Positions 17,791 through 48,479 of a stretch of 64,000 nucleotides of DNA are shown piece by piece. Origin of the DNA: Terebella lapidaria (lineage: Eukaryota; Annelida; Polychaeta; Terebellida; Terebellidae); contig OX424565.1 in NCBI GenBank assembly GCA_949152475.1, positions 9,803,953-9,867,952 of the forward strand, given 5' to 3'. The stretch's first letter is position 1. Every line of letters starts with the position of its first letter. The position numbers and the translations under genes were made by a program. The notes under the pieces were generated by a model. That model worked only from the letters and a program-made list of their open reading frames with translations. It was not told the DNA's origin and did no database searches.

Positions 17791-18490
17791 ACAATTTCTG
17801 CTAAAACCATTTCTGCTGAAATGCCTTCATTTTGCTACAATCCAGAGTATAATACATGTAAATATAGGGAATACCTCGATCACACAAAATACCATGTAAA
17901 GTAGTAAATAACAATTCACAGTTGACATGATAGTCTGTGTTTATTATACCGTATGACTATCTTCTTATTGCAAGAATATCCGACATGGAAACAGTCACGA
18001 AATGCAAGCATGTCGGCTGCAGCGCATGCTGCCCATTTATCAATGAACCAACAAAAATATCAAAGGCACAATTTGTACGGTTATAGTTATCCGAGATCAC
18101 ATTTTAAATATTCTGTATAATACAATGATATCATAATGCGAGAACAATGCAGAATTGACTCCTTTGGTGACAGCCTTGCCCACTGTAAACTTTAGAACTT
18201 AACAGACACTGCCTCTCACAGTTGGTGACACCTTGCCTACTGGTGACTCTAGAATTTGGCAGATCATACTGCTGATGACAACCTTGCCTGATGAAGACTC
18301 TAGAATTTGGCACATACGCGTACTGCTGGTGACAACCTTGCCTGCTGAGGAACTCGGCAGATACCTCTGGCGACAACCTTGGCTGTCATGGACTCTGGTA
18401 CTTGGAAGGCACTGTTGGTGACAACCTTGTTCATCGAGGACTCGAGAACTCGGCAGACACTATTTGTGACAGCCTTGCCTGATGAGGACT
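17791..18490. other. Sequence 3' of BORA with short degenerate repeats
   Basis: From about 18160 to 18490 a degenerate unit of about 60 bases recurs (GGTGACAACCTTGCCTGATG, GACTCTAGAACTTGGCAGAC). The BORA stop codon lies at its edge, so the 3' UTR probably runs into this array. No poly(A) signal was assigned. Confidence 0.55.
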
Positions 18491-21400
18491 CTAGAACTCA
18501 GCAGACATGGACACGCGGAAGTTGGGTGCCCTGTCAAGGTCCGCTGGTACCAGGTAGTTGTTGCTGTCCTGTGTGTCATAGTGTTCCATGAGTGTGGGGG
18601 CGTGAGTTGGTTCGAGATCTGGCAGCCTCTGTGACACCCCCAAAGAGCTGCAGTAGCGTTGGTAATCTTCACCGGCACGCTCCAGAACCTGTTTCGCCAA
18701 CTCACCTAATGAAACACCCAGGGGGAAAAATGTAAACAAATGTCAATCTGAGCAGTTATATGCTAAGTCAAGATTATATCACACCATGGGTGCTGTACCT
18801 TACCAGCAATTTGTTTAGTTTGTTTTTTCTTCAGAGTGTAAATCGATGAATTGATCCTGAGCATAGTCTTCAAGATTGTATTCAATGGCCAATTTACATG
18901 TTTTCAAGTAGTCGTTTTTGAGCAGGCATATAAATCTGTCAGGTTAATGATATTTCATGTAGAGTAGTTTTGTTTAGTTAGGTTATTTGGGGGAATTTTT
19001 GACACTACTCAGGTACATCTGAGGTCAACTTCAAGGTCATCATTTAAGCTTTGCCTAAAAGCATTTTGTCTAGAAAGGCCAATTTACAGATTTCAGGTCA
19101 GACGTAAACCTTGAGGTTTACCATTCAAGTTCATCCGAGTTCTAGTTCAAGTCACCTAAATATCAACCTTAAACAGTCCAGACAACAAAAGCTTATTTTT
19201 GCAGAAATATCATTTTCTGTATTCCTGCAGGAATACGAAATATTGTATTCAAAATATAGAAATACATGAAACTGTATTCCTGTTGTCAGAACAAAATACA
19301 CAATATCATATCATATTTGGTTTTGGAAGGGTTAGTCGATAGTTGGTTGGCCCGTAGCCAGTCATTGAGAACACACAAAGATTCTGTGTCGTCTTCGGAT
19401 TATTCCTGGGCAAAATTTCAGAAAGTATTGAAGATAAAATTTTAAGGGCATAGTGTTGAAGGCCAGGGATCTGTTTATGAGTCTGGTAACATAAACTTGT
19501 ATCACATGTTTTAAATATTCAACATCATAATGCCAATTTCGTAGCCTCACACAAACCACCAAAAACATGTAGATACATTTTGAAATGAGACTAGGAAATA
19601 GACAAAGAACAAAGCTAAGTTATACACATATTTATACTCACTTGGGAGAAGGACAGTCTGCCCTGAGAGAACAGCCTCATTGTCATCACAGCCCTCAGAG
19701 GAGTGAAACGCTGGCATGCCAATAGCATTCAGAAGCTCAGGTCTAGAGTGTGTGGGCTTGTTCTGCCGCGACTCGTCAAGTGATATCGACTTGCCAAGTA
19801 CTTTCCTGGCACGCCGGATTACCTCACAGTCATGGGACCCCTGCCCGGAGACCGTGGTTTTCGTGATTGAATTTTTGGATGACACATGTCGGATCATCGG
19901 CCGTTTCCTGGCCTCGGGTTGATGGTCGTCGACTCGGTCAACAGCATCACTGACATCGATTCCATTGTCGTAACTGGTGAATGGCAAGCCGCTGAACTGC
20001 TGGGTCAGGTTTGTGTGACTGGTGGCCAGCCCAGTGTCCTGGGTCGTGGTCAGCTGAAGACTGTTGGTGTTGTAGCCGGTGTCCTGGCTGACGAAGTAAG
20101 TCTGTTGTGCTGCCTCATACTCTGAGGCCTCGTCATCAGTGTACTGTTTGTCATCGTCCATATGACGGTGAGTGCTGGAGGCGGCGAGGTCAGCAGCTGC
20201 CAGGAACGACAGTCCTTCGTCCATAGACAGTGCCAAGTCCACTTCCATGTGGTGACCGTCAAACTCGACTGGCTTCGGTTCATCGTTGGCTGGCCTAGGG
20301 GACTTGGGCATCAACAACTCAATTGGAACAGGGATCTTTTTCGCCATTCTTCCTCTACGTCTCAACCCTGACAACAAATGATCGAATTTGCTTGATGACT
20401 GCACCAATCAACTGACAAGTGAACACAAAGTTCTGATAATCACAGTCGGACCAGCAACATCAATACTTACAAGATTGTGATTGTGGTGAGTTGGCAAAGC
20501 TGCCTTCCATCTGTGTGATGGGTGACATTCCCGGGCTGAGTAAGCCGGGACTGGGATGTCGAAGAGAGTGACGGCCAGAGCTGGGGGTGGCCTGGAGGGG
20601 CTGGGGGTGAGGAGACGCCTGGCCACGACCACCAGGAATTGGGCTGAATCCAGGCGAGTCCATCATGTCTGGGTCAGACGAGCATCGACGCAGTCTGGCA
20701 GGTGTGAACGGGCATAAAGACTGTGGCCCTGAGATAGGACTGGAAGAGAACTGTGCCTGGATAGAGAGAAAGAGTGGCAGGTCAGTCAGTTGACAACACA
20801 GCAGCACCGTACACTACACTGACACATGAACTGTCCAACACTTACTGAGGCAGGTGTCTGCATAGAGTCGTTCTTGTGCAACTGTTTGGGAGTCTGAAAC
20901 TTGACTGGAGATACATCAGGAGATAACTCAAAGTTCATCCCGGTCCTTGCTGTGCTTTTGTTTGCTCTGTCAAAGAGAAAATCACTTTCAAAAAGTTTTC
21001 ACCTACCATAATGCAAAGCTTACCTTGGTATCATATATGGTAGGTGAGCCATGTGTTAACAACTATGAATTTAGTACAAAATGTCTACAGCATCTACGAG
21101 GAGGTCGCCTGTGAAGGTACAGTACATGTGGAGCCAGAAACTCCATATAGTAACTGGTTAACCTCTAGAAATTACTTGTGGGATAGCCGACATGTACAAT
21201 CACTGCCGGTTGCCAGACTGACTTTATGCCCTATATTTGTTGTTGTTACCTGACGGGGCTGGGCGCTGACTCGACCTCGCCGTGAAAGAACAGTTTTCTG
21301 CGTAGAGACGACGTGCTGAGACTGTCAGCTGTGCTCGAGTCCTCTGAGTCTCGACCAGCTGACTGGGTGTAGTGATCTCCTGTGAAGCAGCAGAAAATAA

Positions 21401-24400
21401 GTTTAGTAGTCACTGTCACACTCACCTTGTTTGGCTACACAACATGCTTGAAGAAATAACTGATATAGCAAGTTTACCATTTCAACAAAAGGAGGATTGA
21501 GTTTTAGACCACTTTAGTGAGATGAAAAAGTAATAAAAACCTAGCATTTTCTCCACATCCAGATCAGGTGGCAGACTCAGTGTTGTTTGACAAACAGCTG
21601 TAGGAAATAAAACCTTAAATATGAGAAACAACTAACAGAACACAGCACAGATACAATGATTAATGGAATTTAAGCGAGTAACGGATGTAAAAGTAATTTG
21701 AGGTAGCCTAAACTCTTACTCTAAATTGCACCTTACAATTTAAATAGAACCAAAAAAAAAAATCAACAAAGTCCACTATCTGAAGGCTGGTATTATTGAG
21801 AATGACAGAATGAGCTACCTCAAGCATGCAAGCCCTTTTCTTATGTTAGATCATACTGTACTAACCATCAGCTTTATCTGTGGATGTCCTGCTACGATCT
21901 GATGTCGGTGTGTCCACGTGATAGCCGTAGTCCATCACTCTTGCTGGGCTGCAACCTGGTGAACAGAGAATCAACAGAGGAGTCAGATGTCTTGTGCGGA
22001 TGCACAGATGGGGTGACAGACAGACAGACAGACAATGTATGTGAGTGAAGCCACTCAGGTAATCCTGTGTCCTGGGGCTTTCAGGGGATGTATTTGTTTG
22101 TATCCACTGAAAAATGTATCATTGTTGAAGCTCTAAATACAATCAGAAACCCATAAGAGAGGTATGGGTTTCTGATATAATACAATACAATAGGGCCTGT
22201 AGTCACGTGTAGGCACATAGACGGGGCGACAGACAAACATGTTAGTGAGACGTTTGGTGTAGGCACACAGACGGGGTGACAGACAGACAGACATGCGAGT
22301 GTGACGTTTGGTGCTGGCACACAGACGGGGTGACAGACAGACAGACAGACATGTGAGTTAGACGTTTGGTGCAGGCACACAGACGGGGTGACAGACAGAC
22401 AGTAATGTGAGTGAGATGTTTGGTGCAGGCACACAGACGGGGTGACAGACAGACAGACAGACATGTGAGTTAGACGTTTGGTGCAGGCACACAGACGGGG
22501 TGACAGACAGACAGACATGTGAGTGAGATGTTTGGTGCAGGCACACAGACGGGGTGACAGACAGACAGACATGCGAGTGAGACGTTCGGTGCAGGCACAC
22601 AGACGGGGTGACAGACAGACAGACATGTGAGTGTGACGTTTGGTGCAGGCACACAGATGGGGTGACAGACAGACAGACATGCGAGTGAGACGTTTGGTGC
22701 AGGCACACAGACGGGGTGACAAACAGACTGACAGGTGAGTGAGACGTTTGGTGCAGGCACACAGATGGGGTGACAGACAGACAGACAAGTGAGTGAGACG
22801 TTTGGTGCAGGCACCCAGATGGGGTGACAGACAGACAGACAGACATGTGAGTGAGACGTTTGGTGCAGGCACACAGACGGGGTGACGGACAGACAGATAG
22901 ACCTCACTGACCTGGAGCTGGGGTGCGGGGAGTAGCGGGCAGTCGGAGCGGCTTCTGTTTTGAGTTGTCTGTCCAAGGGGACGGAACAATGACGTTTTTA
23001 GAGAAGTAGGAGTTGATTATATCTTGAGCTCTACTCTCCAGGTCCTGGTCGTGTTGTCTGTAAAAAAAAAAAAAAAAATCTAAAACAAATCTGTGCAATT
23101 ATTGTCTCGTAATGCAAAACGCCTCACTGCGCGATCTTGATTCAGCCCATACACATAGCATGCAGTGCCATGCACACTTCAAAGTCACTTTCAGAGTATG
23201 ACTATGTGCATGTCAAATAAATCGACAATAGATCTTCACAGTGAAACAGTACTAGTAAATGTTTTCCAGGGGAAATAATTCCATTTCAGTTTAGGTGCTT
23301 ACGTTCATACACAAGCAAACTAGTTGATGATGTATATGATAAGAATGAACAGTATTGTGAAATACCTTAGCTACACGTTGTACACATGAACTGCACTAGT
23401 TTACAAATACGATATTGTGTATTTTATATGAACAACAGGAATACAGTTTCATGTATTTCTATATTTTGAATACAATATTTCGTATTCCTGCAGGAATACG
23501 GAAAATGGTATTTCTGCAGAAATACGCTTTTGCTATATGGTCCGTACCGGTTTTCGCAACTGGCATAAATTAGTTAATATTAGAAATGACCAAAATAATG
23601 GACACATCCAATCAGGCAAGTTTATAAATGAAAGAAAATCGGCTGCTGTTACTGTAGAACTGGTTAAATGTCTGGTGAATCGAAACCAGATATTTCTGTA
23701 TTTGGATAATATTGATAAGCTACAAAACTGACTGAGAGGAAAACTGGCTTGGTGTGGTCTCGATGTCAACAGGTTTCAACACTGCAAGCTCATCTATTGT
23801 CCATTTGAAAGACTTGGGCGTCTGAAACACAACAAATCATTAGTGCACAAACATCAACCCATCACAGGTGCATACATGTAGCTATCACAAACTAGATTTG
23901 TCATGATGGTGAGCATGTTAACTTACATTCTCTGAGCTTGAGCACTGAGCAAAGACATTAGGACTGAACACAGATCCATCAAGACGTTCCAGCATGTTCT
24001 CGTCAAACGGGTTTCGTGGAATCTTTCCAGATGGTGCTCTCAATGGTGTTCCCTGCAATGAAGGTTACATTTAGCATGCGATATGAGAGCGAGGAGGGTT
24101 ACACCTACAGTGGTCCCCCTCAGATAAGACCTACCCTTCTGCCACAAAATTAAGGTTTTATCTAAGGGGATGTCGTATTAGAGGGGTGTATTTACATGTT
24201 AACATTCTCCTAGCGCCACCCGAAAAAGTCTTTACAGAGGGGAAAGTCTTTATTGAGGGGGGTCTTATCTGAGGGGGACCACTGTGCCCTCATTCATGCT
24301 GTATGGTGCCTTCTATCCCCACATGTTACATGAAAGCGCCATAACAACAATATTTCCCCTCCCAAGATCATAAAGTGTTTCTTCACATTCTGATCTTGCT

Positions 24401-25156
24401 AACTCAAATCTATTGTTGTTACATACAAGTGAAGTTTATAGGACCAATTGAACCATTTATTTCAGCTGGATGATGAATGTCAATGGGGTTATCCAGAAAG
24501 AAGTCCTGGGAAGGATTCTGAAAACCGGTCAAACATGTCAAAGGGTTTATGGGAATCAAGCAACAAATATTTAGCACATGTGTGACAAGTCTCTAGTACA
24601 TTCACCTTGTTGCTGCTGCCATGGAGATGTCCTGAGCCGGGCTGGGTTGCAGTGGTGGGGCACTTGCCGGAGGGGGTATGGAAGTTTGGGAGCGCCCACG
24701 GCGAGGTAACGATCCCACCCGGAGTTAGGGGGCAGGGACTAGACTGGGCAAGGTGGCCCCAGGGTTGGCCTCGACTCTTGGGTGTCCCAACAGTCCCATA
24801 ATGCTGACTATTGTACAGCTGCCCCAAGCACTTGACCGGCGTCCTAGAGGTCATCTGATTGTCTTCAGTGAGAGCAGTGGCGGAGAGCAACAATCTCTGG
24901 GAGTGACAGGTTGTGGCTTGATGGCTTGTAGGCTGGTGGCTTGAAGATTGATGATTTGTCACAGTTGGTGATTGCTGGTTCGCTGGCTGTTGGCTGACAA
25001 GGTGATGACTAGAAGGGAGCTTGTGGCTCAGGGGCGACACACACCCGGCAATACTACTAAAGGATGGTCCAACTTCTGCTGAGGATGCCATCATGGACGG
25101 AAAAATGTCTTTGTCACTCAGTGATTCTGATGTCTCAGGATTTGTTCATAATGGAG
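18491..25156 (-). CDS. BORA: BORA, Aurora A kinase activator (11 coding exons)
   Basis: Bora binds Aurora A and lets it phosphorylate PLK1 at mitotic entry. Coding exons on the minus strand: 25094-24606, 24052-23927, 23821-23733, 23057-22912, 21943-21866, 21597-21541, 21379-21250, 20966-20846, 20756-20471, 20367-19642, 18705-18491. All joins keep phase and total 2463 nt (820 residues). Family landmarks in order: IPRNPFDENM, FKWTIDELAVLKPVDI (human FRWSIDQLAVINPVEI), VIVPSPWTD near residue 260 (the cyclin-CDK site motif), CQTTLSLPPDL, SSLRRKLF, QFSSSPI, and DTGYNT near 603 where human has the DSGYNT degron. The first exon adds about 163 Ser/Pro/His-rich residues absent from human. An acceptor at 25157 implies an upstream non-coding exon; a short upstream frame (25149-25135) precedes the start. 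The donor at 23733 is the least certain: another, 12 nt further upstream in the exon, is also in phase. Confidence 0.92.
19190..19310 (+). repeat. Intronic repeat, partner of an inverted copy at 23405-23530
   Basis: About 120 bp, including CGTATTTCTGCAGAAATA-like and TATTCCTGCAGGAATACGAA motifs. The reverse complement, with a few changes, lies at 23405-23530. This copy sits in the BORA intron between exons 19642 and 18705. Confidence 0.8.
22240..22900. repeat. 54/58-bp minisatellite in a BORA intron
   Basis: About twelve units of ACGTTTGGTGCAGGCACACA plus GACGGGGTGACAGACAGACA and GACATGTGAGTGAG. Spacing is mostly 54 bp and sometimes 58 bp, through one extra GACA. Because 54 is a multiple of three, long spurious reading frames run through it on the minus strand. 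Confidence 0.92.
23405..23530 (-). repeat. Intronic repeat, inverted partner of 19190-19310
   Basis: Lies in the BORA intron between exons 23733 and 23057, in opposite orientation to its partner. The two flank BORA exons four to ten. Confidence 0.8.
24107..24285. mobile_element. Small TIR element (MITE), 179 bp, in a BORA intron
   Basis: Perfect 25-bp inverted ends (24107-24131, 24261-24285) reading ACAGTGGTCCCCCTCAGATA then AGACC. A CAGTGG start next to TA suggests the Tc1/mariner-pogo group. The flanking dinucleotide on the right is TG, so the TA duplication is imperfect. Confidence 0.7.
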
Positions 25157-25586
25157 CTGCAAAAGACAATACACAATCATGAGAATCGTACACTGCATTG
25201 TCAATGAGTACCAGATTTAAATTAAATTGTGCCAACTATGCTATAGAGTAGCCTTGGATATGCTATATGGATTCCTCACAGATCCAGTTTGTGTATTTTT
25301 CCTATTGTAGGTGTCATATGGCTTCTTCGGTTCTTCCCCTTATCACCAGTAAATTTACCATTGTATTTGCAACATCAATTTTGTGAATGTATTAAAAACA
25401 ATTTACACGACTTACCGTGATGTACATGATTTTTATTTATTCTCGACATATATTATTGTATATATGTTATCTTTGTATACACATTATGTCAATAAACTAC
25501 TACTTCTACTACCAATCTAATTGTTAGTATTTTATTTTTTATAGATTTTACAAATTTGATACTAGTATATATATGTGAGTAATTAG

Positions 25587-26363
25587 CCAAAAACGAGATC
25601 TCGAGAATCTGAGCATAATCGAGGATTTTATCTTGTTTACATCAATCAGGAATCTATATCATGTATATTAGACCAGAACATACATTGGGGGTGTGTTCTA
25701 CACAAACATCTTGATTTCAAAAGATTGCACCACTAAAATGCACAAATTGTGTGCGGACCCAGAAATTAAATGACGGGGCTAAATTTAACAGTGTAGATTG
25801 CCAACTATTTCAATTTTCGTGATAGAGGTATGAAATTCGGTAAATAATTGCCGTTTGACTCCCGGGTGAAGTATGCCAAGTTATAGAACGATAGCATTCA
25901 GCATCACAAAAATATTAGCGAAAAACAGTGTAAACGAGTTAGAAAAATCCGGAGTGGTCCCACTCCCAGGTATACTCTGATTTTTCTAACTCGTTTACAC
26001 TGTTTTTTGCTAATATTTTTGTGATGCTAAACGCTATCGTTCTATAACTTCGCATATTTCACCTGGGAGTCAAACGGCAATTTAATACTAAATTTCAGAC
26101 ATCTAACGTGAAACCTTAAAAAGTTGGCAATCTATCCCGATGTTAAATTTAGCCCTATTATTTAATTTCTGGGCCCGAACACAATTTTGTACATTTGCTT
26201 GGTTTTGTAGCGGAGCAATGTTTCAAAATCAACATGTCTGTGTAGAATACACCCCAGTGTATCTTCTGGTTCAAAGTTACAAGAATATTTCGAACCCTGA
26301 TGGAGGTAAACAGGACCAATTCCTCTAATATGCTCAGATTCTCGAGATACCGTTTTGCTTTTG
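25587..26363. repeat. Long foldback (inverted repeat), arms about 370 bp
   Basis: Left arm about 25587-25955 and right arm about 25972-26363 are reverse complements with scattered differences. Outer ends share TCTCGAGAATCTGAGCATA. Inner parts share GTTATAGAACGATAGC and AGTGTAAACGAGTTAGAAAA. The centre is itself palindromic (GGAGTGG-TC-CCACTCC). A third, partial copy in the left-arm orientation follows at 26364-26570. It lies just upstream of the BORA coding exons. Confidence 0.8.
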
Positions 26364-26570
26364 GGTTGAAATTTAACATTGATGTGGATTGCCAACTTTT
26401 TCATTTTTCACGTTAGCTGTCTGAAATTTGGTAGAAAATTGCCGTTTGACTCCCAGGTGAAGTATGCCAAGTTATAGAACGATAGAATTTAGCATCACAA
26501 AAATATTAGCGAAAAACAGTGTAACCGAGTTAGAAAAATCCTGACTCCTGTGAGTGTGGTCCCAGGTAGG
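26364..26570. repeat. Third arm copy of the foldback repeat
   Basis: Repeats the left-arm sequence (TTGCCGTTTGACTCCCAGGT, GTTATAGAACGATAG, AGCGAAAAACAGTGTAACCG) in direct orientation to 25587-25955. Confidence 0.75.
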
Positions 26571-26648
26571 TCGTGGAACCACCATACAGTAGATCTAGTC
26601 CTACGTAATAATAATGGCAGTGAATCTATTCAAAACGAGCAAACATAC

Positions 26649-26870
26649 GATGGTTATTTTTGCGATCTGCTGCAAACATTCCGCTTGTAACTGTAAGCAG
26701 GTATGGTGCAACGAGACAAACATCGAACCACGTCCAAACTTGTTGACAGCTCAATTTAAAATCCTCAGTCGACGCGCGCTCTGGTTGACCAATGAGAGCA
26801 CAGCAGCTCCGCAGCGGACACTGTACCGTAATCCCGCGCATAAAGGCGCATGCGCCTATAAACGAAAGTT
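26649..26870 (-). promoter_or_regulatory. Candidate BORA promoter and first non-coding exon
   Basis: A locally CpG-rich patch contains a palindromic NRF1-type core GGCGCATGCGCC at 26845-26856, an NF-Y box (GACCAATGAG, CCAAT at 26789-26793), and a CHR-like TTTAAA at 26755-26760. In BORA orientation the order is NRF1, CCAAT, CHR, about 30 bases between the last two, as in many G2/M promoters. A good donor, ATC|GTATGT, follows at 26649 and could splice to the acceptor at 25156. This is inference from motifs only. Confidence 0.35.
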
Positions 26871-26949
26871 ACCAAACACATTTAGAAATGCCATTTTTAA
26901 CTCCATTGTAAAGTTATAAAATCACTTCCAAAAGAATCCAACAAAGTGA

Positions 26950-28010
26950 GATTTAAAACGTCACGTTATTTTGCGTTATTTCTTCATTTTGGAGACACAA
27001 AACTTTAATTGCCGCCATGTGAATATTGTATGTATATTGTTTGGTTCCAAATAATATTAACGTAAATCAACGGAAATTCATCGCTATTTTATATTACCAT
27101 TATTGACACATTACATTGACACCGCTATCAGATCGCTATCAGATCGATGAATGTAGGCCTATTATTCCTCGAATATTTCCTGCCGAATGAAGAGTTTGAA
27201 TAACCCATGTTTCTGGGCATTTAGGCCATGATCTTCTCGGCAGAAAATTAAGGCTTTTAAATTGAGTCGAACTTATACTTTCTTTATGTGTTCCGAGGAA
27301 CTACCTGAGAGGAGAGACATATGTTGTCCTATTTCGAGTGTAACATCACATTATTTTTTTGTGTTATAATCGAATTGATGCCTCATGCAGAAATACATTC
27401 TAAACACAACTTGAACAAGGCGCATTTTCAGTTTGGAAAATACAACTGGTTTTGTGTACATTTTGTAAGTAAATAATTCCGAATACTTTCATCCCATTCA
27501 AGAAAGAGTTATGAATATATCTAAAAAAAACTTTGTTGTGCGGTACATGTGAATTCAAGGCGTATCTGGAAGTATAAACTTAAGTCAAACATACGTAATA
27601 TTTGGACACACGTGGAACGAGACTTCGGTGCATATGGTTAAATTTTAATAAAATTTCAGTAAGTTGAAGCAATATAAGCCTAACAAGATATTAAAAAAGT
27701 CACCACATGTTGTAGGAATAGCCTAGATCACACACTATAAGCATTTGACCGTAACTTGCTGACCCATGGCGAATTCCTCAGAAAGCAAACTCCCCAAAAG
27801 GGCCGAGTTGTTTATATGTATTCATGCGCACAGTAACAGCTCCAATCAACACGAAGACTCACATGTACAAAGAAGAATGCCACTATTACAACTCAACACC
27901 CCAAAAGAGAGACATTTTAAAGTAATAGCCTATGTAGCGATTGATTTCGGTTTGGTGCCGTGTTTTTGGGTGTTGTGTTTTCTCTCGTTGTGTTTATTTT
28001 TTGTATAGTC
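26950..28010. other. Non-coding stretch with a worn relative of the 1893-3157 element
   Basis: 26960-27260 shares TTATTTTGCGTTATTTCTTC and GTTTGAATAACCCATGTTTC-like words with 2220-2360. An 80-codon frame at 27766-28008 shows no recognisable family and I do not call it a gene. Confidence 0.4.
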
Positions 28011-28816
28011 TTTCTGTAGTACCTCTCGCCGCCTTGCCGTCAGCTGTAAGTCAAGAGGGCCATGGTTTATAAATTGTAGGGTTGTTGGACAGGATTCATT
28101 GGATTGATAACAGTGGGACCCGCACCCTTCCCGTTAAAGTTTCCCTAACATTGGAGCCTCAGTCTCTGGGGCTCCGCACTGCGGAGGTCAAATAGTGCGG
28201 AGGTACAAAATGTCTAAGTCCTTCCCTAGCCTGTCCTAGGAGGACAGAACCGTCTCAGGGAGATGGGTTGTCCGTGGTGTCTTGCCCCGACTGACGTCTC
28301 AGAGAGCTGTGGCTGCCTCCTTTCATTGTCCACCCTGCCGGAATCTGTTCTGTGCATGTGCATGCCCGGCCTTCCACATGCACGTGATCATGGCTCCGCA
28401 TACACGTGGTTGAACCTCAGCAAGAACATGGTCGAACCTCCGCGGGTGGTTATGTGGCGAAGACCGGTGTTTTTAGGAGTTCATTATATTTCCACCCTCT
28501 CTGGTTTGGACATGTCCTCGTGTCCAGTGATGAAGGCATCTCTGTGTGCCGCTCCCTCCACTCAGTCTTTCCTTGTCACCCCTTCATCCGAACCTCCGAG
28601 GTAGACACTCCAAATCTGTGAAAAAATCCATCGCTCTGCATCCGAGGAGGTAAGCTCTGCATTGCGGAGGTAGGTCTTCAGCAACTGCGGAAATAGGTCA
28701 CCCTCCGCAGCCGGCACCAAACTTCTGTAATATTGAAAACAATTTCCAATATTGGCATCCGGTTTCTGTAAAGGCATCGAGTTTCTATTATCCCCGATTT
28801 CATCGAGCCTTCGTCG

Positions 28817-30639
28817 CTAGGGTTTCGAACGATCATAGGAGAGGGCTAGAACCCCTCCCAGGCCAAGAAGCCATGGAAGCCAAGTGGGGGTTCTCCGAGA
28901 CGATGGATGTACAGGCATATCTCTGGGAGCGGAAGTGCTTCTCGTCTTAAGATGATCTATGTGGACCTCCTTCGGCACGTCCATCGGGGACTTCTGGATC
29001 TTAACACACCAGCCCAGTTGGGCGTTCCCGACCAGGTAAAGTCCTTTCCAGCCCAACCCGAGCTTCGGTCGAGTTTCGGGGGACACCAATACAACACCCA
29101 GTTACCAACTGGGAACCATCTTCGTGCCGCCTTCAAGTCATGGTTCTTCCTCTGCCATACTGTAGCCACCTTCATATGAGCATGGACGTACTCGTGAGTG
29201 ATGGCAGTGGCTTCCCTCACCCACTCCACGTACTCATGCGAGCACACAGTCGGGACCTCCTCCCTCCCTTCAGGGTCCATGCGATAAATGAGATTGAGAG
29301 GAGTGGTCGTCTCCCTGCCCATCATCATAAGTTTCGGCATGCAGCCCATGCTGTCATGCACAGATGCAGGGTACGCAGACGTCAAATATGGCAACCAGTC
29401 ATCCTAGTCGTCATGATGGCCATTAACGACTGTGGATAACATCTGGTGGAGTGATCAGTTAAATCGCTCCACCATGCCGTTCGATTGTGGATGATGTGGG
29501 CTAGCATAGATCTTCTCGCTGCCCAATATCGTAGCTAGCTCCTGAAAGAGACCAGATTCAAACTCGCGACCCATATCTGAAAAGATACAAGCCGGCACTC
29601 CCCATCTGCACACGAACTTTGTGACGAACACGTCCTCTACCATCTGCGCCCTATGGTCAGGCATCGCAAAGGCCTCCTTCCATCGAGTGAAACAGTCTGT
29701 GATGACGAGAATGTACCGCTGCCCCCTCTTCGAGATCACACTGATCTCCAGCACGTTCATCGCCACCTTCTGTGTACAGTCTCCCACCGGTGCATTACCC
29801 ATGGGCTGGTGCCCAGGCCCTGGCCGTGGCTTCCGCGCACTGCACCTCGGGCAGACTCCGCACCAAGTCTCGATGCCTCAATCTTCCATGCGTCCGGCTG
29901 ACGCCATTATGTCCCTCTAGAAGCTGATCATGGACTTCTTTCCGGACAGCCTTCCGCACACTGTAGAGTATGATGATCTGTAGCAGGGGCTCCTTCTGCC
30001 AATCCACCTGGGCACGGCAGAAAAGGAATCCGTCCCTCACAACCAGCTGGTCTCACTGCTGCCAATAGGCCTTCACTGTGTGGCTCTTAGTCCTGACATC
30101 CATCCATTCGGGTCTCTCGTCAGCCGCTGTCTTCCAATCGAGTATATGGCAAAGGTCCGGGTCGGAGCTCTGCAGAGACTTGAGCTCCTCCGCAGAGTAC
30201 CCAACCCATCTTGATGTCCGGCTGTTGACCTCCGCACTCCGCACCTCGGAGTCCATCCTCCCCAGTCCATCTCCTCAAAAGTCATCTTCCTGCCAGCGCC
30301 GTGCTTCCTCCGGGAGCTAAAAACTTCTCCTCTGGACCTCCCTCGTCCTTCGTCCCTCCGCATCCTTCTCTCCTACACTGCCGACACCGAAATATGCCGT
30401 CTTCATTGCTATGCCTCACTGGGACGAAGCTCACAGTGAAAGTCATAGCTCGCAATCTGTGCTGCCCAGCGGGCTATCATGTCCTCTGCATCCCTGAAAT
30501 TATGAAGCCAACTTAGGGCATGGTCGGTCCTAAGCAAGAACAGCCAGCCCCATAGGTAGTGGCGAAAGTGGTGTATCACCACCACCACCACAAGGAGTTC
30601 CCTCTTTGTGGTACAGTAGTGCCTCTGGATGGTACGCAA
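28817..30639 (-). mobile_element. Ty3/Gypsy retrotransposon fossil (pol remnant)
   Basis: Minus-strand parts in order: RNase H (about 30639-30409, with TTKRELLVVV and TDHALSWL), the linker to integrase (30256-30053), the integrase zinc-binding region (around 30040-29795, LLEGHNGVSRTHGRL), the integrase core (29802-29455, VITDCFTRW, GVPACIFSDMG, HPQSNGMVERF), and the integrase C-terminal part (to 28817). Gag, protease and reverse transcriptase are not seen. GC-rich sequence at about 28020-28816 may be its 3' end, but no pair of long terminal repeats is visible. Broken, with several breaks; an old copy lying between BORA and MZT1. Confidence 0.8.
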
Positions 30640-33600
30640 TTATCATGGATAAGCGAGCGAGTATTTCTGCTTCCTTCAAATTTTCGCACATGAGAGAGAA
30701 AACTCGGACACTGAATACGCTCCCACGGTTTATTTTACATGAACCAGTTCAAATTGGTGAAAATGACATGCACAACAGTCAATGTACATGTGATTGTTTT
30801 CACGAGCAAAACAATCAAAACCCAGAATAAATCAGATCAAATATATATGTGGCTGTCTTCACAGGACAAACAGCCGAAACCCAAAATGAGCAAAATTTAA
30901 ATCCCCCTTGTCTAACTGATACAGTATCCTAATTCTGACTGCCTAAACAGTCTAAATGTAATTCATAAGACACAAGTAAGCGTCAGGAAATATAGTAAAA
31001 GACATGTGTCGCCTCTTAGCAGTGCACAGCTCGATTCCGATGTGGGGAATGGGAAGTTTATTCGAGTCTGCATTCCTGTAGACATACATACTGTAATTAT
31101 AGTTACTGTTCTGTGAATAACAAGATCAGGGACTTTGCAGACTCAAAAATGAACAATTTCCAGACGCTTTCCAAACCCAGTTCAGTTCGAAAACCCTATG
31201 CATGATAGCTCGTTAATATAAATTTAGCATGCTATGTAAACTTGACTTGTACACTTAGGCTCCATCATTCACATCTATACATATAGTATTCGACTTGTAA
31301 AACAACATTTTTTTGGGTGAAACATTCCGTCAAACTGCATCGAACGGGAAAAATCGCTATATTTCCGCAAAGCATTGTCACATTGGGGAGTGAGCGTCAA
31401 TCCTCGGATTCGATTCAGATGAACCTCGGAATTTTTTTGTAAACAAAAGCCGAGGACAACAGCGGTACGCGAAGGAAAGCACACTAGAAGATTAGGTTTT
31501 CGTTGTATATAGTTCGTAATGTATGCGGAATGGATGTATGAATGTACTAGTATTGGTCACATCAGGGAACAGTTTGTTCCAATCTCATGGCTACAGTATG
31601 TTGATATTACCGCGGTTTTGTCGGCACGCCCTGCGTTCATCTCAGGGGTGCACTCGCTTCGATGTGTATCAGTCCTGAACTCTGAATAGCTATAGCTCAT
31701 AGACAATCAAGTATGATTTGAAATGGTCATGTGTTACATGAGATATCAGTTACTGGGAGAAATGTCGGCTTTATTTCTCTCTGGCTGAGAAAAATACGGC
31801 ATAAACGGATGCAACGACAATCCTCGTTGTTGCAACATTAATCCTCGGATGCTATTTTCATTGATTGTGTGAGAAAGCGCTATTAAAGCGGTGATATTTG
31901 AATAATTGATTAAAACAAAATTTCGGATGGAAAAAAGCTTCTTAAGCTTCATTGCTTCCATAACTTGTATGTGTCTAGATCTAAAGGCATAATGCTATAT
32001 AGAAGAGTATACATCTTGATTTGCGCGTCCAATGGTTACGGACAGACCTTTCAACAGATTATAGACTGATTGGCATGTGAGACGATGGAAAACATTCGCA
32101 ATAAATCTGAGAAGTATGAAATTCGATTCGAAATAATTCTATCTCAGTTTGGGAAGGTAATGACTTCATGTGTTATCATGTGTGATGATTGTAATTTTCT
32201 GAAGACATGTACGTTATATAAAAGATTTCGACCGTTGATCGTAGATGAGAAATGGGTGTTCCATATGCATGAAGTGAAAAGTTAAGACATCCAGGATCAT
32301 GACCCTGTATCGATTGAAATGTCATGGAAGACATACTGCTTACAGAAAGTAAATTTCAAGGGAAACAGGTGTCAAACAATCGAATGACTGCATCAAAATG
32401 TATTGAAAACGAGTAGATGTGTATCTATACTAGTCGTTTTTGGTGCTACATGCACTAATATTTCATTATTCTGCCCGCGAAAGGACACACGCAATCGACG
32501 TGGTCATAAAACAAATGAAGACCGGATTTTACTCCGTGGATAAAAGTTGCATATTTATAGTTCCAAGGATGTTCGTAGCAGAGTGGTAAATCACGAAATT
32601 AAGTATTTTCTAACATTATTCCATCACTTTATACAATGAAACATGTGCACAGATATGGAGGATGTGTTTGGATTGCAGTAGGCGCACAGAGCGATCACCT
32701 GTAATATGTATCATTCCTGTTTATCCATTTTCAGCTGGCCGATTCTCGAGTTATCTCCCAACCCGTGCGTACACTAGTTGTTGTGGGTATTGTTTGATGA
32801 GTACCGAGTGCATACGGCACATTTGTGGGTTAATGGCACTGCAACACACATTTAGGTTAAAAAAAAAAATTCTATGTTTCTGGTTACAACGGTCTTCCAA
32901 AAGTGATGCGGTGATGCGAATTTTTTTTTTTTCCTAAATCGGCACGAGTCGTGCTCGCCGAAGCCATGAAAGCTACAATTTGGCGTAGAAAACACCTACA
33001 TGTTAAATATAGTATGTGCATAGAACATCCTATTTTCTTTATAATATAAAAGAAAATTTTGTATTCTTTGATATAACGCATTTTATTACCTAAACTTTTT
33101 GTGGCTAGATGCTTTGTAGCATTACGCCTGTTTACATTCATGTATATAATTTGATGAACTTTTAGTATGCCGATATTCTTCACTAGTTTGAATTTTTTTT
33201 ATAATAACTGCTACTAAATGTATAAAACATGTAAAATATGACAATGTATGTCCTCTTTTATCATTCAACAACCGAACGTCGAGGACGGCGGTCAAGAAAA
33301 AATATAAAAAAACGAAGTGAAGCGCGGTGTTCTAACCAACGCGCACGATTTTTTTTTTTAAAAATGAAATGATGCGCTGGGTTTGGAGTGACGCGCGCGA
33401 TAACCAGAAACATGGAATTTTTTTTTTGGCCTTCAGGGGCGTTTATAGGATTTTGGGAGGGGGAGGGGCCCAAACCTTTGATTGACGGAGCAGCGAGCGA
33501 AGTGAGCCCATGTCGGCCGGGGGTCTGGGGCCCGCTCAAGGGCCCCAAACGCTGAAGGTTTATGCATCCCCAATGGTGTGTTCTAGAGCTCTCCTTGGAC

Positions 33601-34775
33601 AATTTCATGGCCTCGGAGAGTTTATGAATACCTGATCTGGGGTGGATCGAGGTTTCTGAAGGAGGGCCAAGATATGAAATGTTGCGAAGCGAGTTGGTGA
33701 AGGCCGAGGGTCAAGCCACAAGCTAATAGGATATGCATGCCCTGTCATGTTTTTTTTCTAGGTTTCCTTTGGTCCATTCCTCATTCCCCTAAGAGTTTTT
33801 GCATGGCCATTTGAGGGAAGGCTCGTTTGGGAAATGTAACTAAGTCAGGTGAAGCAAGCCCCTGTCGGCCGGGGGTCTGGGTCCCGCTCAAGGGCCTCAG
33901 ACGCTGAAGGTTTATGCATCCCCAATGATGTGTTCTAGGGCTCTCCTTGGTCCAGTATTCATGGCCTTGGAGAGTTTATGAATACCTGTTCTTGGGTGAA
34001 TCCAGGGTTCTGAAGGAAGGCAAAGATATGAAATGTCGTGAAGCGAGGTGGTGAAGACCGAGGAACTGGGACCCGCTTTAGGGACCCAGAAGCTGAAGGG
34101 ATATCCTGCAATGTTGGTATGGTAAGCAAGTCGAAGCAAGCCCCTGTCAGCGGGGGGTCTGGGGCCCGCTGAAGGGCCCCAGAAGCTGGCGGTGTTCCTG
34201 TGCCTAATACAGCATCCCAGAGCTCTCCTGGGTCTAACTATCAAGCATTAGGCCTACTTAACACCGATAAATGCATGATCACTGTAGTTGAAACAGAATA
34301 TGACATAAAATATTACTTGGTTTTGGACCCCACCAAAGGATTAAGTGCATTTGGCCATTCAATGCTCTCAAATCATTTATAGAAGGTGGAGGGCATGAAG
34401 TGCTTTCACTGAGAACAGGTGGGTTGACTATAGAGTGAATACACTGCTCCAGACATGGGGCCCCAGAAGTTGAATCTACTTCCCGGTGTAATTTATCTTG
34501 AAAACACTTCCTCCCCTCTCTTTTTCCCCTTTTCCTTCTTTTTTTCTTCTTCTCTGTTTCTTTCCTTTTTTTTGGAGGGGGGGGGGGGGGGGCTAAACCC
34601 GCCTCTGGCCTCATATTGCTCTGAAACATATTCGTAGATCACATTTGCACCAAACACTCCTCAAATACATACAATTATATCACAACGAAGCTGTGTATTG
34701 AGATATTTCATCCGAGGTTCATCTGAATTGACTCCGAGGATTGTCGCTCACTCAGAGGATTGTCGCTCAGGTTCC
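30640..34775. other. Intergenic stretch without a recognised gene
   Basis: Mostly AT-rich. Fragments with TCCTCGGATTCGATTCAGAT-like sequence at about 31395-31440 reappear inverted at 34705-34760. A GC-rich repeat (GGTCTGGGGCCCGCT...AAGGCC, ...TTTATGAATACCTG...) occurs near 33490-33720, 33846-34070 and 34130-34240, spaced about 350 and 280 bp. Poly-A/T tracts and a G-tract near 34577 are present. No exon is supportable. Confidence 0.5.
33490..34240. repeat. GC-rich tandem repeat, 2-3 copies
   Basis: Units share GGCCGGGGGTCTGG, CCCGCTCAAGGGCC, AGGTTTATGCATCCCCAATG and GAGAGTTTATGAATACCTG. Spacing between first and second unit is about 352 bp. The third is partial. Confidence 0.75.
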
Positions 34776-34930
34776 CCCACCGTGTGCCTTGTGGTACTCC
34801 ACACTGTAAATAGTTTTTTCACCAGATGCATTTCCATTAACATGAACAGTTTGTTTACGACCAGCTAAGTATGACATGAACCAGTTTGGATCAATTAATA
34901 CCATTAATAGTGACAGACAAACAGACAGGC
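34776..34930 (-). mobile_element. LINE reverse-transcriptase fragment
   Basis: Minus-strand translation gives NWFMSYLAGRKQTVHVNG followed by a decayed GVPQGT-type motif, typical of the region just before the catalytic palm of CR1/L2/Jockey-type LINEs. Short and frame-shifted. Confidence 0.55.
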
Positions 34931-36780
34931 CCAAATGCAATACCCTCTCCCCCCCCCCCCCCTACAGGAGGGTAGTAAACTAACTCTGGCAAGCGTATTA
35001 CATTCTCCCAAAGGCAGGGAACTGTTAAAAAATATCGATCGAAAACGCAGGTTCAGCCGTGGAGCAGGGTTAGTAGTAAACATACTAGAACCCTCGATAA
35101 ATTCCGAGGCAACAGTGGTTTGTCATCTACGGTATCTCGTAGGGAAAATTCACTGCGGAACAAAACTACAGTTCAGTTATGGCGGATTCCGGGCAAAAAG
35201 TGTTTGCGGCAAGAGAAACTATGCAAAGTACGATAACTAATGACGACCTCTGTAGCAGTTATATATAGAATCAGTTATATCGGAACCGGTATATACCCTT
35301 GGGCATAGACCTGTTCTTGCAATGAGTGTAGGCCTACAGTGACTTTTCAAAGAAGAGGAAAAGTACTTGTTTACATGGGCGATAACGAGGGAAACTGGTA
35401 TAACAGTTGATTAATGGTAGTTCAGCCCAAAGTGCTAGTCCCTTCCTGAGTTGACAACGGTTTTCGCCTGACACCCTGTCACAGTGGGTCAGGATTTGTG
35501 AACTTATTTCAGAACAAAACATGTTTTGAATGCATGAAATACACACTGTGTATCATTTTCTTCCCCTCTCAGTTGTTTCCAACGATTTATGTCCCTCAAT
35601 TTCAAGTTAATTCCATACTTTGTCACTTGACAGCTGTTTGTTTACATTGTCATCATGGTGCACTTTTTTCATGCTACAAAGCTGCCACTCAAATTAGCCA
35701 ATCAGGGAGCATCATCATTCATGCAATCAGCTGATGATGGGTGTGATGTCATAATCCGGGAAATATCCCCTTTTGGGACTTTTGGCGCCAAATCTTAGAT
35801 TGAAACAATTTAGCCTGTGGTTGAATAGGGCTCTGCCCGTGAATAGTGCTAGATTAATGGTATATAGACTGGAGGCCAAACCTGCAAAAGGCCGTTATTT
35901 TGAGAGTTAGTATGCATCGAGACACCGAATGTGGTATCGTTGGAAAGCTTAAGACCTATGGGTCACATTTTGACATGTCCCGTCTTTTGGGACAGGGGCG
36001 ATCTGACCGCGATCACCATGGGTATGGTCATGGAAACAGGCTTGCAAGGTCAACGACCTCAAATCTACCCAAGCGTCCTGCTAGGCACCCAGAATTCATA
36101 GTTCCGACGACATCTCAACAGGCCACGCCCCCTTGGCAACTGCGGGAAGAGTCCCACAAACATACCATGTGCTTTTGTTTGAGCGAGCCGCGAATAATGA
36201 AACTTTTGCTTGCTTCTGTTTACACATTCGTTTTGAAAAAAATATGCCATATTTCACATGTCTATACTCATAAAGGGATTGGGAATATATTGTGAGGCTA
36301 AATATTCAATTCATCTGGCTTTGCTTGGGCGTGAGTGCGTCAGAAGTACACTATCATCCCACTTCATTCAAGAGATTGGGCTGTTGAACACGCCGGTTTT
36401 GTTTGAGGGACTTTTACATTGAAAGTGGGCGGAGCTTTCGTATTATCGGAACTATGAATGGTGTAACATATCACTGAAAGTGCTCCTTTTGAAGAATGGT
36501 GCAACTGATTGGGTTTGATTTTGTAAAATAGACAGATGCTGGTATCAGGTATGTGTTGGTGGAGTGACCCCAATGAGGTGTCAAGAATTGAGGTCCCGGG
36601 GGTCGGGATCACCACCCCCTGGAGTTCGCCCCTTCTCCAAATAATGACAAAAGTGTGATCTGAGGTTCAAGAGTTTGTTTGTTTAAGAGACCAAGCAATA
36701 CAAGAGTTATCAAATTTCACCATTCAAGTGTAAGACCAGTTAGGATTGCAATGATACCAGCATCACTTGGGAGTGGGGCC
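34931..36780. other. Upstream region of MZT1, no exon identified
   Basis: A C-tract lies at about 34951-34963. No frame here has convincing coding character. The first, probably non-coding, MZT1 exon may lie here or just downstream. Confidence 0.4.
35698..35792 (+). promoter_or_regulatory. Candidate cell-cycle promoter elements (NF-Y, E2F)
   Basis: An NF-Y box in good context (TTAGCCAATCAG, CCAAT at 35698-35702) is followed 79 bases later by a perfect E2F-type palindrome, TTTGGCGCCAAA, at 35781-35792. Both motifs are common in promoters of mitotic genes. They lie 1.4 kb upstream of the first visible MZT1 exon. No transcription start is shown by the sequence. Confidence 0.35.
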
Positions 36781-36781
36781 G

Positions 36782-36795
36782 GTTGCCATGGCAAC
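36782..36795. promoter_or_regulatory. X-box (RFX-type) palindrome upstream of MZT1
   Basis: GTTGCCATGGCAAC is a perfect, fully palindromic match to the RFX X-box consensus (RYYNYYATRRNRAC). It lies 352 bases upstream of the MZT1 exon at 37147. Confidence 0.5.
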
Positions 36796-37003
36796 AGACA
36801 TTACGAATGGTAGGCGTCGGGTCTATTTCTCACCCGAAAATGGCAAGAATATTGGGGTTCAGGCTGTATAAAGTGTTAATCACTGAAGTCACGGATATAT
36901 GAGGCTACTATTAGTGTTAGGTCGAGCACTCAAATGATCGATTAATCGGTCGAGCTTTGGCCAGAAACTTTGGCCTTAAAATTCAGTGTCCGGGGTATTT
37001 AGG

Positions 37004-37080
37004 TTACTGGACCATCAGTCCGATCACCTATTGGCTAGCCGGTAAGCTACAAATCCCTTGAGCCTATGTTTCTTCAATTG
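37004..37080 (+). repeat. GGTTACTGGACC repeat fragment
   Basis: AGGTTACTGGACCATCAGTC, then CACCTATTGGCTAGCCGG, closely matches 12021-12075. It is a terminus of the GGTTACC repeat group, ending some 65 bases before the MZT1 exon. Confidence 0.6.
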
Positions 37081-37146
37081 TGAGAATATATCCTTATATT
37101 CAAGACCGTGACCCGTATCGGCTGTTTGTGACGTTGACATTCGCAG

Positions 37147-38810
37147 GGATACCAGTGATGTTGATAGCATGACGGAATATGTATTTGCAGTGCTACAGGA
37201 GATGTCGCGGCTGCTGAACACAGGCTTGGATGCAGAGACTCTTGCACTGTGCGTGAAACTCTGTGAGAGTGGAGTCAACCCCGAGGCTCTCGCTAAAGTT
37301 GTGCAGGAGTTGAGACGAGAGGGTACTGCACTGCAGGTCAGTTCCCCAACCATCTGTCGCACAGTCCAGGTCAAACCAAAGCGGGTAAGGCTGTGGACTA
37401 CCTCAGACCAGAGCCGTCTAGTAAGAGAGTTACGACAAAGACGTGATAGGCGCCATTTTTTGTCCAATCACGTTTGACGGAAAACAACAATACCCCACAC
37501 AAAGCTACATTGATATCATGAATACCTCGGGCTGAAAGGTCGTTTCAGCCGATGCAAAGCTTCTTTTGGACAAAAAATGGTGAATCACGCTAAAATCTCG
37601 AACGGTCATTGTCACAACTCTCTTACTAGACGGCTCTGCCTCAGACCACTTGACTGGTAAAGGCTCAGTGCCAGGATATCAAGCAAGGAAAAGTTGAAGA
37701 GCAAAGCTGCCTCTCTGGGCTGGTCTGGGAATGTCCAGAGTCTGCTCGTTTTTGGTGTACCTGCAGAATTAGCATAGCATAAAAGCTAACTTGTGGAAAT
37801 GAAAATGCTGGTAGAGAAGTTGATGATGGAAAACTCAGATACGTGTACCATGTGGATATGCTATTGTTGCGAATGACGAGATTTTCTTTAGACTTATCTG
37901 CATGCAGGTCGCATTCCTCTCATATTTTGTAGCTCACCACACTCGTCTGTCGTCTGTGAGCGTAAAATCTCGAAATCTGATAAATTGTTAGGTTACCAGA
38001 CCTTTGGTCTTGGAATTTGCACAAAATGGCTAATATTTCGCTTAATATCGACTTTACAGCTTAGAAATCTATTATGGACATATGGGAAATGATATATACC
38101 GAATATTCTGATGACATTGAATTTGACCTTTGACCTCACTTTCAAGGTTATTTGCTCAAAATGGCTAATACACATGTGTCTTGCTTATTATCGACTTTAC
38201 AGCTTGGACATCAATTGTGGACATGTAGGAAATGATCTACCGTTATGATGAAAATTCTGGTGTCTGAATTTGACCTTCAACCTCATTTTCAAGGTCGGAG
38301 CACAAATTGCAATCTCTCACTTATAATCGACTTTACATCTTAGGAATCAGTTGTGAACATGAAGTGATATACCGGTATCCTGAATATTGAATTCGACTTT
38401 TGACCTCGTTTTCAAGGTCACAGGACAAAACGGCTATTACCTAAAACATAAAAAATTGTCCGGTAACCTTTTTTAGCCTTGGGCTGATTTTCATAGATTT
38501 GGTGGTGTTGGGAAACTGTCAGTAATCAACAGTTCACCTGTAATAGTGTTGTGCATCGAAATGCCCCTGGCCTTTACATATAGTTTTTGTTCTGAATTTC
38601 TAGGCATCTTCTCAAGAGAGCTGACAAGTTATCTGTGAGCCACAGCTGAAGTCAGCATAGGCCAGGAGTGTTTGTCAGCATCTCAACAGTATACTGGATG
38701 GACTGTGCTTTGTAAATGTGCATGTATGCCATACGTGTGTGTGAAATGTTCCAATTTCATCGATTTTGTTTTGTGCATCTGTTTCTAAAATAAATTTAGA
38801 AATGATATTG
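37147..38810 (+). CDS. MZT1: MZT1, mitotic-spindle organizing protein 1 (last two exons)
   Basis: MZT1 (MOZART1) is a small helical subunit that binds GCP proteins and recruits the gamma-tubulin ring complex to centrosomes and spindles. Exon A, 37147-37336, starts after TTCGCAG and ends CTGCAG|GTCAGT. It encodes [31 protein letters not shown] and VVQELRRE, matching human LLEISRILNTGLD, LSICVRLCEQGINPEAL and VIKELRK. Exon B starts at 38604 after TTTCTAG and adds ASSQES and a stop at 38622-38624, in phase. AATAAA follows at 38789-38794. With the first ATG in exon A (37169) the protein has 62 residues; human has 82. The acceptor at 37147 means at least one upstream exon, which could be untranslated or add N-terminal residues (frame open upstream of the ATG within the exon). 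The intron holds a hAT MITE and a GGTTACC repeat. Confidence 0.93.
37409..37638. mobile_element. hAT-type MITE, 230 bp, in the MZT1 intron
   Basis: Ends read CAGAGCCGTCTAGTAAGAGA then GTT, and are inverted over about 30 bp with two mismatches. An 8-bp target duplication, CCTCAGAC, lies at 37401-37408 and 37639-37646. The CAGAG terminus with an 8-bp duplication is diagnostic of hAT. It begins 72 bases after the MZT1 donor site. Confidence 0.88.
37988..38500 (+). repeat. GGTTACCGGAC-end repeat copy in the MZT1 intron
   Basis: Starts TTAGGTTACCAGACCTTTGG and ends ATTGTCCGGTAACC followed by TTAGCCTTGGGCTGATTTT. The interior repeats CAAAATGGCTAATA and CATTTTCAAGGTC words, with TCAAGGTCA at 38412-38420. 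Shorter than the 52.8 kb copy. Confidence 0.7.
38789..38794 (+). promoter_or_regulatory. Poly(A) signal of MZT1
   Basis: Canonical AATAAA 165 bases after the MZT1 stop codon. Confidence 0.7.
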
Positions 38811-41527: not shown

Positions 41528-41665
41528 CTCGTTGCAGGAAAGCGTAGGCTCTGTGGAGGGTTCAGTTCTGTCGGAATTCGATCTCCCACAACCTGGTCCA
41601 GTCGGGGGCCCCTGGCTCAGTTCGTTCAGAACTGGAGCGATCTGGCGTCGTCAGACAACTCAGTT

Positions 41666-43540: not shown

Positions 43541-44377
43541 GAATGCAATGCTAGACTTTCTCTGCTATCTCTTTGATAGGCTTAATTTGAAGCCTACTAT
43601 GATCGAGGGATACAGGTCCATGCTGGGGCCTGTATTCCGTGCTAGGGGGATCGATTTAACTAATAATCGTATCCTTGCTGATCTGTTAGCGTCCTTTAGG
43701 ACGCAAAGGCCACGGGGAGTTCTACTCTACCGGAGTGGGACATGGCTTTTGTGCTATATTGTCTTACTAAAGCACCTTGGGAGCCTCTCAAGGAAGTTTC
43801 CTTGCAGAGGTTAACTCTTAAGACTTTCTTGTTAGTCATGCTAGCAAGTGGTCGAAGACGCTCAGATGTCGCGGCGATCGACGTATCGCGAGTGGCATTT
43901 GGCGCGGATGGGTCCGTTTCCTTATACCCAGTACGTGATTTTATGCCTAAGACACGTGCTGTGGTTGAGGGTGGGAAAGCGTTCTCCCCTATCGTAATTC
44001 CGTCACTGGGCGATTAAGTAGGACAGAATGAGCCGGACGCTCTATTGTGCCCGGTAAGAGCGCTGGAAATCTACATCGATCGTACCAGATCGATCAGGAA
44101 AGATCGTAAGCGATTATTTATTTCCTATCAGCCTAATAGGGCTACGGATATCTCCACAGCTACACTATCCAGATCGGTGAAGGTTGTAGTGAGGACTGTC
44201 TATGCGGAGTCTTTGGCGGCCAGGTCGAATATTCTGTTGCAATATATCGTGAGGACCGGAATGTGGACTAATTATACAACATTCATCGGGTTCTCTCTGT
44301 CCAATGCTGCCGAACTTCAGGACCAGTCGTCCAGATTTAGACTGGGTCCGCTGGTCGTAGCACAGGCTATTGTTTGA
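43400..44377 (+). other. Tyrosine recombinase region of the DIRS-like fossil
   Basis: Downstream of RNase H, as in DIRS elements. Shows the N-terminal SAM-like part (TYEAKWRVFVRWC, LDFLCYLFDRLNLKPTMIEG), the box I region (LASGRRRSDVAAID), CPVRALEIYIDRT, and a C-terminal RTGMWTNYTTFIGFSLSNA block equivalent to the (R)TGGWTSxxTFxxFY region of DIRS recombinases. Part of a broken element. Confidence 0.75.
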
Positions 44378-48231: not shown

Positions 48232-48479
48232 TGAAAAGGGACTACTCACCATATTATTGATGAAACAATTGTATTATGTACTTTCCAGACATGATCTAAT
48301 CCAATTGGTTTTGTGGCGTTTGTGTGTGTGTTGTGGCTCAGTGTTGTTTGTTTTTGTCTACCCAAAAACTCTTCTTGAGATCATAAAGAATTTCGTAACT
48401 CCCGCTCGTTGTGATTCGAGAGCCGCCACAAAAGGTGTTCCACTATTTTCGTTTCATTACTCCGTAGCTTAACTCATAA

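Follow-up and report, generated by a model that had tools for sequence, protein, structure and literature searches.

BORA and MZT1 as divergent neighbours in the annelid Terebella lapidaria, with a likely shared promoter

The pair in vertebrates and in Terebella

In the human genome, BORA and MZT1 presumably lie on divergent strands, with a gap between them that we take to be a few hundred bases. One study places them in the 13q block KLHL1-DACH1-MZT1-BORA-DIS3-PIBF1-KLF5 (PMC12449741), and another likewise gives the order DACH1-MZT1-BORA-DIS3/RRP44 for birds (PMC7759463). Here, we describe the same two genes in the terebellid annelid Terebella lapidaria, in a stretch of 64,000 nucleotides (the window) taken from contig OX424565.1 of assembly GCA_949152475.1 (positions 9,803,953 to 9,867,952). 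In this window BORA, on the minus strand, and MZT1, on the plus strand, are orthologs of the vertebrate genes and stand side by side as spliced, divergent neighbours, as seen from profile searches and gene models. The reading we prefer, to which we give a probability of roughly 0.65, is that this is an orthologous head-to-head pair which would descend from the bilaterian ancestor, with long first introns and a likely shared promoter.

As in vertebrates, the two genes are adjacent in T. lapidaria; unlike in vertebrates, DIS3-type and DACH-type domains are found on other contigs, and the first intron of MZT1 is filled with repeats. In the genome searched (761,603,190 bases in 438 contigs), OB_Dis3 domains occur at three places (on contigs C8, C2, and C1) and Ski_Sno/DACH-type domains at four (C1, C8, C8, and C2), paralogs being pooled in both counts, and neither was found on C12, the contig to which the window belongs. 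This suggests that the pair outlasted its DACH-DIS3 surroundings. Since the two genes were kept together while the DIS3-type and DACH-type genes moved, the reason would be tied to the pair itself, and its persistence thus suggests a pair-specific cause. As the host is an annelid, a protostome has the BORA-MZT1 pair in common with vertebrates.

The names C13orf34 and C13orf37 are, we assume, the older designations of BORA and MZT1. In humans, one methylation probe carries the joint assignment C13orf34;C13orf37 (PMC9231808), and both genes appear in a table of p53-p21-RB-regulated genes (PMC9090780). Among conserved mammalian bidirectional promoters, whose 5′ ends lie within 1,000 bp of each other, orthologous pairs predict unannotated exons of the 5′ untranslated region (UTR) (PMC2688522). 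The annelid locus resembles the promoters of that work in that divergent neighbours are kept between species and a 5′ exon, here that of BORA, is predicted with the help of orthologs; it differs in that those promoters are mammalian, with 5′ ends less than 1,000 bp apart, whereas the BORA-MZT1 spacing proposed here depends on a predicted BORA start. In classic metazoan microsyntenic pairs, a developmental gene is joined to a bystander. Like such ancestral pairs, BORA and MZT1 are ancient neighbours kept across phyla; in contrast, both partners are cell-division genes. In the literature searched, no paper joining MZT1 and "bidirectional promoter" was found, and none of the titles points to a common promoter of BORA and MZT1 or to the pair in an invertebrate, within a coverage of titles that most subscription journals fall outside.

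Gene models and intervening sequence

The two loci are the sole clear genome-wide matches for their respective genes. The MOZART1 profile had one match; the BORA_N profile had four, of which three are exons at the locus (two above the family cut-off, one below) and one lies elsewhere, with an E-value of 3.11. The original prediction, made from the letters of the window, had set BORA on the minus and MZT1 on the plus strand, and this is borne out by 165.5 bits for BORA_N on the spliced model (cut-off 27; profile positions 15–213 of 225) and 87.0 bits for MOZART1 on the two exons it had noted. It was also right about the outer ends of both genes (the BORA stop codon and the MZT1 AATAAA; Table 1), and its claim of adjacency and likeness to the human pair is supported. 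Both genes carry introns, two of which interrupt the coding sequence of MZT1, and on this structure neither gene looks like a retrocopy.

The exons of BORA were located by BLAST with a human BORA sequence, by the genome search with BORA_N, and by a motif search. Joined manually at GT-AG sites, they give a model that keeps its frame across 11 exons with coding sequence and encodes 824 amino acids; its residues 1–459 gave no match to solved chains at E-values up to 1. An in-frame stop stands near the start of the first coding exon, so the ATG at 25,094 would lie in an exon that carries 5′ UTR. The acceptor at 25,157 scores 6.5, the first of 74 AGs in 25,060–26,600, on a weight matrix that is small, having been derived from the remaining ten acceptors of BORA (in leave-one-out scoring, BORA acceptors span -7.1 to 14.2). 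Because this acceptor is a good one, BORA probably has at least one upstream non-coding exon. Within a BORA intron, a 54-base minisatellite occupies 22,207–22,897; an array of 48/51-base units at 18,223–18,507 extends into the last codons of the gene.

MZT1 had been predicted to begin at 37.1 kb; homology and phase place its first coding exon 2 kb upstream, at 35,179–35,227. Started at 37.1 kb, the protein is 62 amino acids long and matches solved MZT1 chains with 68.8 bits at best, from query residue 6; with the upstream exon joined to 37,191, it has 71 amino acids and a best match of 80.0 bits, from residue 1 of both. In addition, the MOZART1 score rises to 90.8 bits and spans the full profile (positions 1–47 of 47). 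The exon was first picked out visually with knowledge of human MZT1, and the control was set post hoc: all plus-strand frames of 25,157–37,180 that run from an ATG to a phase-1 GT over no more than 60 codons were compared with two MZT1 N-terminal stretches. The exon had the top score, 23, among 224 candidates, with the runner-up at 9. None of 300 dinucleotide shuffles reached 23 (mean maximum 11.1, highest 22), and seven further blocks of genuine window sequence scored 11 or less.

The roughly 12 kb predicted between the first visible exons thereby includes the 1,963 bases of MZT1 intron 1, and the distance from the first coding exon of BORA to the MZT1 ATG is about 10.0 kb (10,022 bases, 25,157–35,178). 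All 52 open frames of at least 60 amino acids in this interval were scanned against Pfam, and the three that matched are of retroelement type: an integrase core (29,455–29,877) and an RNase H (30,409–30,639), both on the minus strand, and a below-cut-off integrase zinc-binding domain. No host-gene domain, and to that extent no intervening host gene, was found in the 52 frames, a scan that could overlook short exons, genes lacking Pfam domains, and RNA genes other than tRNA and Rfam types; tRNA and Rfam scans of the whole window gave no match. Of the elements named in the original prediction, Gypsy frames and inverted repeats were recovered, along with interspersed repeats, but the LINE pieces had no Pfam support: a 110-base fragment resembles reverse transcriptase by eye only, and its frame (34,767–34,961) has no Pfam match.

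No direct repeats of at least 40 bases were found in 27,000–31,500. The stretch 31,388–34,785 is possibly one terminal-inverted-repeat element, interrupted at 32,855–34,612. In MZT1 intron 1, three repeats lie within 35,430–36,917, one nested inside another. Copy numbers are lower bounds throughout, the genome searches having scored 40 of 421 to 3,125 first-look candidates. For 35,081–35,429 no other copy was seen among the 40 scored, which is not proof of uniqueness. Overall, intron makes up at least part of the MZT1-BORA gap, and probably most of it.

Table 1. Features of the BORA-MZT1 locus, in window positions
Feature	Position	Strand	Basis or remark
BORA last exon, with stop codon 18,493–18,491	18,491–18,705	-	in-frame join
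BORA exon QDTGYNT	19,642–20,367	-	in-frame join
BORA exon QFSSSPIS	20,471–20,756	-	BLAST, in-frame join
BORA exon ELSPDVSPVKFQTP	20,846–20,966	-	BLAST, in-frame join
BORA exon STSSLRRKLFFHG	21,250–21,379	-	BLAST, in-frame join
BORA exon AVCQTTLSLPPDLDVEKML	21,541–21,597	-	BLAST, BORA_N below cut-off, in-frame join
BORA exon	21,866–21,955	-	frame and splice sites only
BORA exon YFSKNVIVPSPWTDN	22,912–23,057	-	BLAST, BORA_N, in-frame join
BORA exon TPKSFKWTIDELAVLKPVDIE	23,733–23,821	-	BLAST, BORA_N, in-frame join
BORA exon with GKIPRNPFDENMLERLDGSVFSPNVF	23,927–24,052	-	motif search, in-frame join
BORA first coding exon	24,606–25,156	-	ATG at 25,094; acceptor immediately upstream at 25,157
Inverted repeats	within 25,590–26,540		
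Repeat	26,944–27,631		
Gypsy-like fossil, broken (integrase core, RNase H, weak integrase zinc-binding)	28,562–30,639	-	extent from open frames
Repeat	30,972–31,378		
Stretch bounded by inverted arms 31,388–31,430 / 34,711–34,753 (93%)	31,388–34,785		copies elsewhere of 32,083–32,854 and 34,613–34,785
Repeated fragment, 110 bases	34,786–34,895		
Proposed promoter region upstream of MZT1 exon 1	34,896–35,178	.	inference
Repeat, 95 bp	34,980–35,074		23 other places among 40 scored
Candidate donor of BORA non-coding exon, CTA|GTATGT	last exon base 35,086	-	score 6.5, weak
MZT1 coding exon 1, MADSGQKVFAARETMQ + 1 base, donor AAA|GTACGA	35,179–35,227	+	homology, phase with exon 2
MZT1 intron 1, 1,963 bp	35,228–37,190	+	1,512 bp in stretches with copies elsewhere
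Repeat, about 415 bp, carrying TTTGGCGCCAAA and CCAAT	35,430–35,851		in MZT1 intron 1
MZT1 exon 2, core of MOZART1 domain	37,191–37,336	+	genome profile match
MZT1 exon 3, coding part, ASSQES stop	38,604–38,624	+	AATAAA at 38,789

Proposed promoter position and competing explanations

Under the preferred reading, MZT1 would be transcribed rightwards from just upstream of its coding exon 1 at 35.18 kb, and BORA leftwards; the start of BORA would most likely be a non-coding first exon near 34.9–35.2 kb. Both first introns would then be long and repeat-rich, about 2 kb in MZT1 and up to about 10 kb in BORA; insertions sit in intron 1 on the MZT1 side and would probably do so on the BORA side too. 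A shared transcription start region is likely, with one divergent promoter that would serve two genes required at one and the same stage of the cell cycle and for which the pair would be retained. The genes are oriented divergently, as in a bidirectional-promoter pair. The observed-to-expected CpG ratio (CpG o/e) is 1.26 at 35,075–35,300, 0.53 at 25,157–25,589, 0.38 in the BORA first coding exon, and 0.78 in the window, a pattern that weakly fits a start beside MZT1 rather than beside the first coding exon of BORA. In addition, a candidate donor for the non-coding BORA exon, at 35,086, has a score near that of a typical BORA donor. The original prediction had offered two options, a short gap hidden by long first introns or a promoter pulled apart by insertions; the upstream MZT1 exon and the good BORA acceptor favour the former, and the latter has become the less favoured.

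Several points weigh against this reading. No transcription start of BORA was found, and the gene order of the pair was compared with that of vertebrates only. The exon-1 donor (2.0) and exon-2 acceptor (-1.2) of MZT1 score low, within the range of BORA sites (donors from -1.7 to 10.2), and 14 of the 538 GTs in the interval equal or exceed the 6.5 of the candidate BORA donor. CpG o/e is above 1 in further stretches between the genes, which is why the argument from it is weak. The proposed promoter partly consists of a repeat of 95 bp, seen at 23 further places among the 40 scored, and the ATCGAT of 34,896–35,178 falls within this repeat. Patterns for E2F, CHR, CCAAT, ETS, and NRF1 had no site in 34,896–35,178, where, if the promoter is there, a cell-cycle control site would have been a helpful, non-defining mark; their absence counts against a simple carry-over of vertebrate sites. 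Finally, a generous list counts 7,731 of the 10,022 interval bases as repeat (77%), and 1,547 of the 1,963 in MZT1 intron 1, whereas a strict list (stretches with copies elsewhere, inverted or internal repeats, and Gypsy frames) counts 5,608, or 4,184 with only the Pfam-matched Gypsy frames (42–56%). The strict list leaves room for a separate BORA promoter; the preferred reading is thus slightly weakened, and a promoter pulled apart by insertions becomes slightly more probable.

In that case, the promoter of MZT1 would lie near 35.1 kb and that of BORA in 25.2–31 kb or beside its first coding exon. We regard this as the less likely case, all the same: the abundance of repeats, at either strictness, is in its favour, and stretches without shown repeats (e.g., 26,545–26,943, 27,632–28,250, and 30,640–30,971) could house a BORA promoter, but the acceptor at 25,157 points to a further exon upstream, and CpG o/e just upstream of the first coding exon is low (0.53). 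It is very improbable that MZT1 starts at the ATG at 37,169 and that the exon at 35,179 is a chance open frame. This ATG is in frame and has a possible acceptor (exon start 37,147); however, that acceptor scores -7.5 against -1.2 for 37,191 and the model gains fewer bits, and for this the start was rejected, whereas the exon at 35,179 supplies RETM-type residues in phase and adds 11.2 bits to the match with solved MZT1 chains. A coincidental adjacency, re-formed in the annelid lineage, is if anything more improbable still. The region is scrambled, with DIS3-type and DACH-type genes elsewhere, as coincidence would allow, but for a specified neighbour in a specified orientation the chance is about 1 in 10,000 or less, given an assumed and uncounted complement of about 25,000 genes, and the re-forming of the pair in like orientation is accordingly very unlikely.

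Returning to the preferred reading, we favour, with somewhat less confidence, a fuller account in which the divergent promoter pair would date back to the protostome-deuterostome split or earlier and be held by the need for joint mitotic expression, while DACH/DIS3-type genes moved, repeats crowded the first introns near the promoter, and the patch around MZT1 exon 1 was spared.

Two motifs downstream of MZT1 exon 1 were set aside. An E2F palindrome, TTTGGCGCCAAA (35,781), was considered together with CCAAT as the shared promoter and rejected, as it lies inside the repeat at 35,430–35,851, which was found at 39 other places among the 40 scored (of 3,125 first-look candidates), with 91–97% identity; the palindrome was present in all four copies inspected. 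The X-box-like GTTGCCATGGCAAC at 36,782 likewise falls inside a repeat (36,456–36,917). As a separate observation, the repeat of about 415 bp at 35,430–35,851, with its perfect E2F-type palindrome, could scatter E2F sites genome-wide.

Neighbouring sequence and meaning of the pair

To the right of MZT1, an exon at 58,016–58,591 on the plus strand encodes a Frizzled (Fz) domain (100.2 bits) with an N terminus that looks signal-like by eye, and probably belongs to a secreted frizzled-related protein; it is the sole host-gene domain found on that side in a partial scan of the flank. A retroelement with reverse transcriptase, some frames of which resemble tyrosine recombinase by eye, lies at 41,528–44,400 on the plus strand and is perhaps DIRS-like. 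Satellite arrays in which units of about 121 and 132 bases occur together flank the pair (15,566–16,413, 45,062–51,027, and 54,661–55,549).

Elsewhere in the assembly, a mitochondrial contig of 15,973 bases carries 22 tRNAs identified by ARAGORN, which share one strand and include two adjacent Met but no Arg. From frames and tRNAs, its gene order reads cox1-N-cox2-D-atp8-Y-G-cox3-Q-nad6-cob-W-atp6-(non-coding)-H-nad5-F-E-P-T-nad4L-nad4-C-M-M, followed by (12S place)-V-(16S place)-L-A-S-L-nad1-I-K-nad3-S-nad2, which we take to be the common annelid order. Terebellidae and Trichobranchidae are described as having two adjacent trnM genes (PMC11600547), an arrangement also described in a pectinariid and some sipunculids (PMC3282830). 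The mitochondrial contig thus points to an annelid, probably of terebelliform type. Contig C417 bears another cox1-like sequence (44,633–46,450), which contains TGA codons and is a mitochondrial insert or a contaminant.

The pair would couple an activator of Aurora A/PLK1 with a recruiter of gamma-tubulin, and gene pairs that outlast scrambled surroundings point to shared regulation. The locus also calls for caution, since what looks like an intergenic gap in a repeat-rich genome can be intron. More generally, an annelid with long first introns would offer a test of whether selection keeps the orientation and common start of such a pair, rather than the closeness of its coding exons.

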